A stretch of DNA of 64,000 nt. It comes from Desulfobacteraceae bacterium (GTDB lineage: Bacteria; Desulfobacterota; Desulfobacteria; Desulfobacterales; Desulfosarcinaceae). Shown piece by piece: positions 50,636 to 55,101 of this stretch. Each line of letters begins with the position of its first letter. Within the stretch, counting starts at the first letter, position 1. Below the pieces are notes generated by a model. That model was not told the origin of the DNA and made no database searches. It saw only the letters and a list, made by a program, of their open reading frames with translations. Location: positions 1 through 64,000 of the forward strand of contig JABDIN010000067.1 in assembly GCA_013003715.1 (NCBI GenBank), read 5' to 3'. The position numbers and the translations under genes were made by a program.

Positions 50636-51841
50636 ATGCCGGTTTTTATTTGGGAAGGCAAAACTAAAAATAACCAGATTCAGAAAGGCGAATTGGAAGC
50701 CGCCACTGAGGATGCGGTCCGGGCAACTCTGGCCAGGATGCGTATAACACCCACGAAAGTAAAGAAAAAACCAAAGGATCTGTTTGAAAATGTAGCCTTT
50801 CTGCAACCCGTGGTAAAAGAAAAAGATGTCATTCTTTTTGCACGGCAGTTTTCGACAATGATAGATGCCGGCCTGCCGATCATTCAATGCCTGGAAATTC
50901 TGCATACCCAGCAGGAAAATAAAACTTTTAAAGGCATGCTCAAGACGGTCAAAGAGTCGGTGGAGAGTGGTGCGACGTTGGCCGATTCCTTAAAAAAATA
51001 TCCCAAACACTTTGATGATCTTTTCGTTAATATGATTGCGGCGGGCGAGGCCGGCGGTATCCTGGACACCATCTTGAGGCGGCTAGCCGGCTATATGGAA
51101 AAAGCGGCAAAGTTAAAGTCACAGGTGAAGGGCGCCATGGTCTATCCGGTGGTGACCCTGATAATCGCCTTTCTTGTGCTCGTCGTTATTCTGGTCTTCG
51201 TCATCCCGGTGTTTCAGGAGATGTTTGCCGATTTCGGCGGTGAACTGCCAGGACCGACTAAGATTGTAGTGGGGATGAGCGAATTCGTTAAATCCAAGAT
51301 CCTGTATTTGATCATTGGAATGGTCCTCTTTTTCTTCGCATTCAGAAAGTACTATAAAACTGAAAAGGGGCGGGAATCCGTCGATGGACTCTTGCTCAAG
51401 CTTCCGGTTTTCGGTATTTTGCTCCGTAAAGTGGCGGTGGCCAAATTCACGCGAACCATGGGCACCATGCTGGGCAGTGGTGTCGCCATTCTGGAAGCGC
51501 TCGACATTGTCGCCAAGACCGCCGGCAATAAAACCATCGAAAAGGCGGTGTACAATGTCCGCTCCGGTATCTCCGAAGGCCGGACCATGGCCGACCCGCT
51601 GGCCGAGAGCGGGGTATTTCCGGCAATGGTGTGTCAGATGATTTCTGTCGGTGAATCCACCGGTGCCCTGGACGCCATGCTCGAGAAGATTGCTGACTTT
51701 TATGATGAGGAAGTGGATCAGGCGGTGGATAATTTGACATCCCTGATCGAGCCTTTCATGCTGGTTTTTCTGGGTACGGTGATCGGTGGGCTGGTCATTG
51801 CGATGTATCTCCCGATTTTCAAGATGGCCGGAGCGATCTAA
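50636..51841 (+). CDS. pilC: Type IV pilus inner-membrane platform protein PilC
   Basis: A 401-residue PilC / type II secretion GspF protein. The N-terminus MPVFIWEGKTKNNQIQKGEL and two repeated cytoplasmic F domains are clear: IILFARQFSTMIDAGLPIIQ-type first repeat near residue 65 and VAKFTRTMGTMLGSGVAILE near residue 268. Three membrane helices lie at about 168-190, 218-238 and 375-395. It recruits the assembly ATPase. pilB, pilT and pilA are not adjacent. The ATG has GGGGGA upstream. Confidence 0.93.
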   Translation: MPVFIWEGKTKNNQIQKGELEAATEDAVRATLARMRITPTKVKKKPKDLFENVAFLQPVVKEKDVILFARQFSTMIDAGLPIIQCLEILHTQQENKTFKGMLKTVKESVESGATLADSLKKYPKHFDDLFVNMIAAGEAGGILDTILRRLAGYMEKAAKLKSQVKGAMVYPVVTLIIAFLVLVVILVFVIPVFQEMFADFGGELPGPTKIVVGMSEFVKSKILYLIIGMVLFFFAFRKYYKTEKGRESVDGLLLKLPVFGILLRKVAVAKFTRTMGTMLGSGVAILEALDIVAKTAGNKTIEKAVYNVRSGISEGRTMADPLAESGVFPAMVCQMISVGESTGALDAMLEKIADFYDEEVDQAVDNLTSLIEPFMLVFLGTVIGGLVIAMYLPIFKMAGAI

Positions 51842-51963
51842 ACAGGGTACGGGGCGATGTCAACCGGATGGATTCATGTGATGCGGAGGCTTTACTGCGC
51901 TCAGTAGTTGTTAACATCTCGATTTCGGTGCACTGAAAAAGCACTGGTAAAAATGACGGTCGA

Positions 51964-53256
51964 ATGGATCCATCGCTTGGTAAACCTGATAAGGAACTTT
52001 ACACCAGACTAAAACGCCTGATGCTGATTCGCGTGTTGTTCACGTCATTTCTTCTGGCGGCAACACTTCTTCTCCATCTAAAAAATACCCAGGCATCGGT
52101 TTCCGGATCCCTATTCATACTCTATGTGCTGATAAGCGGAAATTTCACCTTATCCCTGCTTTACACCCTTTTTTTGAAACATATTAATCGATTGCACCTG
52201 TTCACCTATTGGCAGGTCTCCTTCGATACCTTCACCGTCACGCTTATCATCTATCTCACCGGTGGTTTCTGGAGTGTCTTCTCTTTCCTGTTTTTAGTGG
52301 TCATCATATACGCCAGTATACTCTTGTATCGTAAGGGCGGGCTGGTTATGGCCGGTTTGTGCAGCGCGCAATACGGGATTCTGGTCGTTATGCAATATAC
52401 CGGATTAGTCGTACCGTACTCCGTTGAGAATTCAACATCCTTATTGCACATGGACTTCAGCACTATCCTGTTCAAGGTGCTTATCACCGTGGTTGCCTGC
52501 TTTGCCGTCGCTTTTTTAAGCGGGCTTCTGGCGGAGCAGACGCGAAAAACAAAGATTGAATTGAATGCGTTAAGCCTGCATCTTAAACGCGTCGAAAAAA
52601 TGGCGTCGATGGGTGAAATGGCGGCGGGGCTGGCCCATGAGATCAAAAACCCGCTGGCCTCCCTGGCCGGATGCATCCAATTGTTGAAAGATGAAATCCA
52701 ATACAGCCCGGACCAGGACCGACTGATGCGAATCGTCCTTCGCGAGACGGATCGCCTGAGTGCTCTGGTCAATAATTTTTTACTTTTTGCCCGACCTCCC
52801 GATGGGAAGCCGGAGACGGTGCATTTGGACCACGCCCTGAATGAAATCATATCTCTTTTTGAAAAGGACAATCTGGTATCCGGTAAAGTCCATATCACCA
52901 AAACCCTTGCACCGGATTGCCTGGTTCATATCGATCCGGTTCATTTCCGCCAGGTCATTTGGAATTTGCTGCTCAATGCAGCGGAAGCCATCGACGGTGC
53001 GGGTGAGATTGATGTCCGGGTCAGCGCCAGGAGTAATTCGCTTCTGGTCTTATCCATTGAAGACTCCGGGCCGGGTATCCCCCCGGAGCATATCCAAGCC
53101 ATTTTCGATCCGTTTTTTACGACCAAACCCAATGGTACCGGATTGGGTCTGTCAATCGTCCACCGCATCCTCGAGGCATATGACGGCAGGTTGGATATAC
53201 AACCCCAGAACAAGGGCACACGGGTAATCGTCACTTTAAGGCGCAGTCTGCCTTGA
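51964..53256 (+). CDS. PilS-like membrane sensor histidine kinase
   Basis: A 430-residue kinase. Residues about 18-185 hold six membrane helices, as in PilS. The HisKA box is MGEMAAGLAHEIKNPLASLA (about residues 217-236, phospho-His in HEIKNP), followed by the N-box WNLLLNAAEAIDGAG, G1 EDSGPGIPPEH and FFTTKPNGTGLGLSIVHRIL. No PAS domain is obvious. In the classical system PilS signals to the sigma-54 activator PilR; no PilR gene is present here, but the sigma-54 promoter upstream of pilC fits. It starts 123 bases after pilC. Confidence 0.85.
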   Translation: MDPSLGKPDKELYTRLKRLMLIRVLFTSFLLAATLLLHLKNTQASVSGSLFILYVLISGNFTLSLLYTLFLKHINRLHLFTYWQVSFDTFTVTLIIYLTGGFWSVFSFLFLVVIIYASILLYRKGGLVMAGLCSAQYGILVVMQYTGLVVPYSVENSTSLLHMDFSTILFKVLITVVACFAVAFLSGLLAEQTRKTKIELNALSLHLKRVEKMASMGEMAAGLAHEIKNPLASLAGCIQLLKDEIQYSPDQDRLMRIVLRETDRLSALVNNFLLFARPPDGKPETVHLDHALNEIISLFEKDNLVSGKVHITKTLAPDCLVHIDPVHFRQVIWNLLLNAAEAIDGAGEIDVRVSARSNSLLVLSIEDSGPGIPPEHIQAIFDPFFTTKPNGTGLGLSIVHRILEAYDGRLDIQPQNKGTRVIVTLRRSLP

Positions 53257-53590
53257 CCTGCAGGTGCAGTCCGGACTAACAGGGAAATCAGGTCTTCCGG
53301 TGTACATTGAACAGCACGCGCCTGTGCACATTATGATACATTCCTTCATCTCAATTCTGTTGTTTGCCGATGGGTTTCCTTTTTACCAATACGATGCCAT
53401 TGGCTTCAATCCGCATTCTACTAAAATTACGTAATAATTCGGAAAGTTATAGCTCAATATACAGGACCGATTGCCGAGTTCGCTTGTCTGCATCTCTCGA
53501 ATCGATAGAAAACATCCTTTTTCCCGCCTGGTATGCGTTTTGCTTTATATTAAAGAAAACTATAAAGAAAATCGAACCTTATGATTTTCT

Positions 53591-53682
53591 TGCTCGAAAA
53601 AGGCAAATCATCCCGAAAGGGTGAGGCGCAAAGCCACTGGCCTACTTCCTGATATAGGATATGGCAGCAGGGTTGCCGAGCG
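53591..53682 (+). promoter_or_regulatory. Class I cyclic-di-GMP riboswitch (GEMM-I)
   Basis: P1 arms GCTCG (53592-53596) and CGAGC (53677-53681) enclose the hallmark core: AAGGCAAATC, a hairpin CCC-GAAA-GGG with a GNRA loop, GGCGCAAAGCC, a second hairpin containing the TATGG tetraloop-receptor half, and GGGTTGCC. The base before GCAAA is G, as in c-di-GMP-binding aptamers, where cGAMP-selective variants carry A. It lies 63 bases upstream of an exported fibronectin-type gene. Confidence 0.88.
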
Positions 53683-53692
53683 AACATGGCTC

Positions 53693-53738
53693 CTCCCAAT
53701 GAAGTCGTGGGTCGCACGGCCTAACGATTACTTGGGAG
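53693..53738 (+). promoter_or_regulatory. Expression platform masking the ribosome-binding site
   Basis: CTCCCAA (53693-53699) just after the aptamer is exactly complementary to TTGGGAG (53732-53738), which contains the ribosome-binding GGGAG seven bases before the ATG at 53746. There is no T-run, so translational rather than transcriptional control is likely. Confidence 0.6.
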
Positions 53739-53745
53739 ATACTCC

Positions 53746-55101
53746 ATGAGAGAACTATGTCCGACACTTCAGAAAATTGCCGTTGTAGCGTTGTCTTTCC
53801 TTTTTTTCACCGTTACCCATTGTCTTGCAGCTACCGTGGTCACCCTGGCCTGGGATACCAACACGCCCACTCCTCAGGGGTATCGGGTTTTCAAGCGTAA
53901 AATGGGCGAAGCCTATGATTACACGGATCGGGTATACGATGGCACCCGGACCACATGCATTATAAACGTTGAGGAGGAAAGCGAATACTTTTTTGTGGTC
54001 CGGGCATACGATGGCGATGATGAAAGTGTTGACTCCAATGAGGTACACTTTGTCCCGCACGCCAATGGATCTGAATATGCTTCGGTTCAACCTGATCTGA
54101 GCGGGCCGGAATCAACCACTGGCGTTAAGCTGACCCCTTCACTTGCTGCAAACACAACAAGCGGTGTCAACGGTGAACTGCACCACAAGACCCATTGGCA
54201 GGTCAGTTTCAACCCGGAGTTCAGCGATCTTGTATTTGAACTCGAATCGGCGACCAACCTCGAAGACCTGACTATACCGGAACTGATACTTGATGCCGAA
54301 ACCACCTATTATTGGCGGGCACGACACGGATACGGGAACGGCTCCAAATCCGCCTGGGCCGACCCCTTGTCTTTCACGACAGTGTCGGCACAAGATTCCC
54401 GGGATACGGATTCCGATGGTATCGTGGACAACCAGTCGGTGTCGGATATGAGTTTGGACCTCAACGCCAATGGGAAACCTGACGTATTGGAAAACGAGGT
54501 GTTGATCATCAGGACAGAGACCGGGCATGAACCGATCGCCATTGAATCCATAACAGACAATGCGAACATCGTTTCCTTCAAATCCATCAGCGAAGATTCG
54601 GTTTATGATACCGACAATAAACCTTCGTTGATGACCTCGGGTATTCTGAGTTTTAAAATTTACCTCCGGAATGGGGCTTCCGCCGCTCGTGTAAGGATTC
54701 ATTTAAACAAGGCGGCACCACAAAACGCGAATTGGTATAAATTCGATGTGGAACAAGGATGGTATATTTACGAAGGAGCTGAATTCAGCGCAGACAGATC
54801 ATCGGTAACCCTCACATTCCAGGATGGCGGCGCAGGGGATGATGATGGTGTCGCGAATGGGATCATTGTAGATCCATCGGCCCTGGCACTGGGTTCTGCC
54901 GATACCACATCACATCATACCACATCGAACAGTGGTGTTCAGATTGGGGCGGCCACTGATTCATGCTTTATTAGCACTGTTTCAATTTTTCCTGCTGATT
55001 TTAATGATTCCCACAGTATGCTGATCGCTGTCCTGATGATAATCCTGCTTGCCGGATTGAATGCCTTTGCCCGTAAACGAAATCGGGAAACAAAATCCTG
55101 A
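53746..55101 (+). CDS. Exported fibronectin type III-like protein with C-terminal anchor, under c-di-GMP riboswitch
   Basis: A 451-residue secreted protein. A signal peptide (IAVVALSFLFFTVTHCLAA) is followed by a fibronectin type III domain (VTLAWDTNTPTPQGYRVFKR ... YFFVVRAYDGDDESVDSNEV, about 28-110), a second beta domain with YYWRARHGYGNGSKSAWADP, and an Asp-rich segment. Residues about 240-375 resemble the choice-of-anchor beta domain, with VRIHLNKAAPQNANWYKFDV. The end is a sorting-like tail: Cys in DSCFISTVS, one hydrophobic helix SMLIAVLMIILLAGLNAF, then ARKRNRETKS. It is probably a surface or matrix adhesin controlled by c-di-GMP; that function is inferred. Confidence 0.78.
   Translation: MRELCPTLQKIAVVALSFLFFTVTHCLAATVVTLAWDTNTPTPQGYRVFKRKMGEAYDYTDRVYDGTRTTCIINVEEESEYFFVVRAYDGDDESVDSNEVHFVPHANGSEYASVQPDLSGPESTTGVKLTPSLAANTTSGVNGELHHKTHWQVSFNPEFSDLVFELESATNLEDLTIPELILDAETTYYWRARHGYGNGSKSAWADPLSFTTVSAQDSRDTDSDGIVDNQSVSDMSLDLNANGKPDVLENEVLIIRTETGHEPIAIESITDNANIVSFKSISEDSVYDTDNKPSLMTSGILSFKIYLRNGASAARVRIHLNKAAPQNANWYKFDVEQGWYIYEGAEFSADRSSVTLTFQDGGAGDDDGVANGIIVDPSALALGSADTTSHHTTSNSGVQIGAATDSCFISTVSIFPADFNDSHSMLIAVLMIILLAGLNAFARKRNRETKS

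Follow-up and report, generated by a model that had tools for sequence, protein, structure and literature searches.

The leader of the gene at 53746–55101 in the window, the 64,000-nucleotide stretch of DNA analysed here, carries a c-di-GMP-I riboswitch. We propose, with a probability of roughly 0.7, that it acts as a co-transcriptional translational OFF switch for the 451-residue exported protein encoded by that gene. In this model the 3′ strand of P1 (53677–53683) would have two candidate partners while the leader is being transcribed. Without ligand it would pair with UCGCACGGC, giving an anti-sequester hairpin (53675–53720) that holds the anti-SD in its apical loop and leaves the SD temporarily open to ribosomes. 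With c-di-GMP bound, P1 would be held and this hairpin blocked, so that the anti-SD could capture the SD as it emerges, turning translation off. The anti-sequester element was absent from the first-pass annotation of this DNA and is new here, as are the direction of switching and the association with a gene family.

To place the window in context we used a comparative set of 100 c-di-GMP-I loci from the same bacterial family, each with 900 bases of downstream sequence. Half of these (50/100) have an SD-masking platform of the design described above, in two subtypes. Subtype A, which includes the window, has the form CCGAGCGA...UCGCACGG, with GGGAG at the end of its SD helix (alignment A1, 20 loci). 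Subtype B, which includes a second locus from the same genome (L094), has the form GGCAA...UUGUC, and its SD helix ends in GGAGG (alignment A2, 18 loci).

The aptamer

The first-pass annotation had assigned the leader to the c-di-GMP-I (GEMM-I) class and had proposed a covariance search as a check. The cmscan of the 64-kb window matched the whole RF01051 model (positions 1–87) to 53592–53680 on the + strand, the strand of all window features given below, at 78.9 bits (E 7.8e-14), far above the gathering score of 35. This was the single c-di-GMP-I match when the window was scanned with all of Rfam, and a rerun on 501 bases left the score at 78.9 bits with no family scoring better. All 22 base pairs of the Rfam model are standard in the window aptamer (22/22), and P1 pairs UUGCUCG (53590–53596) with CGAGCGA (53677–53683) over seven pairs, the latter strand being common to P1 and the anti-sequester hairpin. 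Judged by this match, the window leader carries a genuine c-di-GMP-I riboswitch, of a class already known.

The aptamer had also been described as complete. P1, the GAAA loop and the UAUGG half of the tetraloop receptor are indeed present, but the other receptor half, as read from the sequence, is CCUAC vs CCUAAG, an imperfect match. The reading of the conserved core likewise needs one amendment, as the base preceding CGCAAA is G where a strongly conserved A is expected (GGCGCAAA); of the 46 platform loci in which this base is readable, 5 have the same G. Finally, the end of the feature, previously put at 53748, is corrected to 53745.

Predicted masking of the ribosome site

Downstream of the aptamer, the anti-SD CUCCCAA (53693–53699) is the exact complement of the SD strand UUGGGAG (53732–53738), as the first-pass annotation had noticed, and the GGGAG end lies 7 nt before the ATG at 53746. 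On its own, an exact 7-nt complement would be only modest evidence, as an equally good one arises in about 2% of shuffles and in 1.4% of random window stretches. The pairing becomes convincing because the fold of 53585–53775, whose minimum-energy structure contains it, is more stable than 200 shuffles (z −3.0), and because relatives maintain the helix through compensatory changes. Its computed paired cells amount to 90.0% in the 20 subtype-A loci, where five pairs are changed on both sides, and to 83.6% in the 18 subtype-B loci, compared with 31–51% when the helix is slid. Cells changed on both sides number 17 vs 6.4 shuffled in subtype A and 9 vs 3.6 shuffled in subtype B; these shuffle tests, like those below, are inflated by the kinship of the relatives to one another.

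A predicted anti-sequester hairpin competing with P1

The P1 3′ strand, read as GCCGAGCGA (53675–53683), is able to pair alternatively with UCGCACGGC (53712–53720). Extended by CAUGGC on its 5′ side (53675–53690) and by GUCGUG on its 3′ side (53704–53720), this forms a long hairpin of 14 pairs that keeps the anti-SD away from the SD, and in which UCGCACGG is conserved in subtype A. As the base of this helix uses the P1 3′ strand, the anti-sequester hairpin and the ligand-bound aptamer are mutually exclusive.

In the window, the downstream pairing of the 8-nt P1 strand is no greater than in shuffles (28%), and support for the hairpin therefore comes from its overall stability and from relatives. 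Its energy is −21.2 kcal/mol vs a shuffled mean of −14.8 kcal/mol. Paired cells reach 81.6% in subtype A and 84.4% in subtype B, falling to 21–47% when the helix is slid. Cells changed on both sides number 14 vs 7.6 shuffled in A and 6 vs 2.2 shuffled in B, and the covariation score was matched by 0 of 500 shuffles in A and 1 of 500 in B. An alternative helix competing with P1 is present in the platforms, its subtype-A pairs being mostly invariant. Because the base of the subtype-A helix hardly varies, covariation is lacking for most of the pairs there, and pairs changed on both sides are no more numerous in the subtype-A anti-sequester helix than in shuffles. Changes in the helix base are supplied by four loci that alignment A1 leaves out. 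The syntenic orthologue L110 retains the helix with GCUG:CAGC vs GCGA:UCGC in the window, and in L082, L090 and L079 it persists in other sequence forms.

A pseudoknot combining the anti-sequester hairpin with the SD helix was considered and rejected by reasoning, because the 11 nt between the hairpin and the SD (53721–53731) would need to bridge about 16 bp.

Folding order and the predicted direction of switching

Folding calculations on successively longer window transcripts place the two hairpins in a defined order. With the transcript ending at 53722 the anti-sequester hairpin has a probability of 0.95 and P1 of 0.02; at 53731 the hairpin has fallen to 0.61, and from 53740 onward, including the full length, the SD hairpin stands at 0.98. 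Forcing the anti-sequester hairpin reduces the SD hairpin to 0, while forcing P1 and the aptamer leaves it at 0.98. Nearly all platforms adopt the anti-sequester hairpin before the SD is synthesised (median probability in the pre-SD transcript 0.94 in A and 0.76 in B), and the SD helix is favoured in their full transcripts by a median of about 4–5 kcal/mol. These energies exclude ligand and tertiary contacts, and within them the SD hairpin of the window is favoured at equilibrium by about 8 kcal/mol, whether P1 is formed or not. Switching by equilibrium folding alone was rejected on this basis; since the SD hairpin wins regardless of P1, switching would need kinetic control, and a kinetic model was adopted.

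From the computed folding order and the competition for P1 we infer an OFF switch under kinetic control. The same calculations bear on the opposite direction, in which c-di-GMP would free the SD and turn translation on, as with other c-di-GMP-controlled adhesion proteins. Both Bc2-cap (PMC4933901) and Vc1-gbpA (PMC4744006) are ON switches, which lowers our confidence in the OFF direction, and as the ligand-free equilibrium fold is the SD hairpin, a default-OFF state is thermodynamically natural. Yet the P1 3′ strand forms part of the conserved alternative hairpin, and ligand binding would therefore remove the sole opponent of SD masking that we see, and holding P1 and the aptamer in place does nothing to lower the probability of the SD hairpin; we consequently consider an ON switch unlikely.

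The OFF direction proposed here also weakens one part of the first-pass annotation, which had seen the target as a logical matrix or attachment effector, since c-di-GMP would ordinarily be expected to turn an effector of that kind ON. The reading of the target as an exported protein with a C-terminal membrane segment is upheld.

Level of control and ligand

Control of the target is most likely exerted at translation through masking of the SD, as had been suggested before; the conserved anti-SD:SD helix with its compensatory changes argues for this, together with a search of 53257–53800 that found no terminator-like sites. It is conceivable that the element works chiefly through transcription or mRNA decay, for example by Rho termination once translation is blocked, and terminator-like hairpins with trailing T runs do occur at other c-di-GMP-I loci of the bacterial family (e.g. 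L065 and L068). Such a mode is nevertheless quite improbable here, given the lack of any such site in that interval and a conserved helix that terminates exactly at the SD in both platform subtypes.

The ligand, we infer, is most likely c-di-GMP. The base equivalent to Vc2 G20, which bears on selectivity between c-di-GMP and cGAMP, is G at 53602, and a count at fixed offset across loci finds G there in 49 of the 50 platform loci, which bears out the c-di-GMP-type base reported earlier. In GEMM-Ib cGAMP riboswitches position 20 is A, not G, and this mark is absent from the window aptamer. The host genome has 14 GGDEF domain matches and one EAL match. Recognition of 3′,3′-cGAMP, or of both dinucleotides, is very improbable: Geobacter GEMM-I aptamers do bind cGAMP (PMC8835794) and the G20-equivalent has been described as a selectivity factor, not a hard filter (PMC9262584), but G holds throughout this platform with a single exception, A occurs in just two unrelated loci, and the genome encodes the 14 GGDEF domains, a count in which any of Hypr type would be included.

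These two loci, L088 (G001:C144:2734-2827) and L106 (G014:C34:219619-219715), belong to the same bacterial family, lie outside the 50 platform loci and are candidate cGAMP-type aptamers in their own right. Separately, L139 (G025:C134:17804-17899) has C at position 20; its subtype-B platform is normal and is followed by a target-family gene.

The target gene and its relatives

The target protein (53746–55101) has a signal-like N terminus, an FN3-like region, a choice-of-anchor-U domain (NF041766, 85.9 bits vs a cut-off of 32), and, at its C terminus, a CFI motif with a hydrophobic segment and a basic tail after it. The window protein itself gives no match to PF00041 (FN3). Of 7 homologues scanned, 5 exceed the PF00041 cut-off in the corresponding region, and a profile built from 28 target-family N termini matches PDB chains of fibronectin and tenascin. 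The C termini of the family share the CFI motif, hydrophobic stretch and basic tail, which suggests a membrane anchor. The earlier description of an exported fibronectin-type protein with a C-terminal anchor is therefore consistent with the FN3 matches of the homologues and profile and with the C-terminal hydrophobic segment.

The riboswitch and its target come after a pilC-like and then a pilS-like gene and before a lysS-like gene, the last labelled from reading of its protein. The pilC-like and pilS-like genes (50636–53256) lie directly upstream of the riboswitch gene, and a pilR-like gene is not adjacent, the lysS-like gene coming after the target. The PilS-like histidine kinase (51964–53256; PF25323, 6TM_PilS) is syntenic in the closest relative: in the best-matching locus (L005, genome G005) a kinase 51% identical to it stands directly upstream of the riboswitch and a homologous gene.

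Homologues of the FN3 and choice-of-anchor-U protein follow 47 of the 50 platform loci (with the start of L097 corrected by hand in this count), typically starting 52–70 nt past the aptamer. In the other three, L074, L076 and L150, the subtype-A platform stands before another kind of exported protein (APCDIKNN...YCELCGYGYV), making the platform a module common to separate gene families. The host genome has three c-di-GMP-I loci, two of which, the window and L094, precede target-family proteins; the third (L001/L068) has a terminator-like platform before an unrelated short lipoprotein-like gene. A cobalamin riboswitch lies about 690 bases downstream of the c-di-GMP-I element at this third locus (L001 1501-1585 and 2270-2471; G000:C3).

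More broadly, the bacterial family has a c-di-GMP-I aptamer in 28 of 30 genomes, and 102 of 146 genomes sampled in the order carry one, with up to 14 matches per genome. On one contig four consecutive matches fall within some 360 bases and may form a quadruple tandem array (G067:C102:7438-7794, − strand). A scan of contigs returned a single distant target homologue, in a Desulfoluna MAG. A c-di-GMP-I-GGC aptamer (RF03167; L033 596-682) lies upstream of a distant target homologue in another family of the order.

Taken across the lineage, the balance tips slightly towards a regulon in which multi-copy FN3/choice-of-anchor-U surface proteins would be repressed, not induced, by c-di-GMP through an anti-sequester module whose subtypes A (UCGCACGG) and B (GGCAA:UUGUC) are unrelated in sequence. 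If true, such repression is the opposite of what known c-di-GMP riboswitches do on surface adhesion proteins.

Comparison with known systems

A literature search for c-di-GMP-I riboswitches paired with this gene, including fibronectin with Deltaproteobacteria, found none; for sulfate reducers it gave a switch upstream of norR. The proposed system would tie c-di-GMP directly to a poorly known exported FN3/choice-of-anchor-U family in sulfate-reducer-like bacteria.

Several characterised riboswitches share features with it. Bc2 of the Bacillus thuringiensis cap gene is likewise a GEMM-I aptamer before an anchored surface protein, but it is transcriptional, working through an anti-terminator, and is ON with c-di-GMP (PMC4933901). 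Vc1 of Vibrio cholerae gbpA, again a GEMM-I aptamer, precedes a surface-attachment protein, which c-di-GMP regulates positively (PMC4744006). The cGAMP riboswitches of Geobacter (GEMM-Ib) have the same aptamer architecture with cGAMP as ligand (PMC8835794), and pilM of G. metallireducens has been handled as a transcriptional ON switch (PMC9262584).

Further likenesses are found in Vc2 of V. cholerae, which PMC9262584, citing Inuzuka et al. 2018, describes as a P1-dependent translational OFF switch: it shares the GEMM-I aptamer, G20, the masking of a distant ribosome site, the central role of P1 in switching, and a proposed kinetic control. Vc2 differs in its target gene and phylum, and the window platform has in addition the conserved UCGCACGG anti-sequester hairpin. 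The two-helix model put forward here is precise and testable, and its predicted sign is the reverse of that seen in known c-di-GMP riboswitches for surface adhesion proteins.
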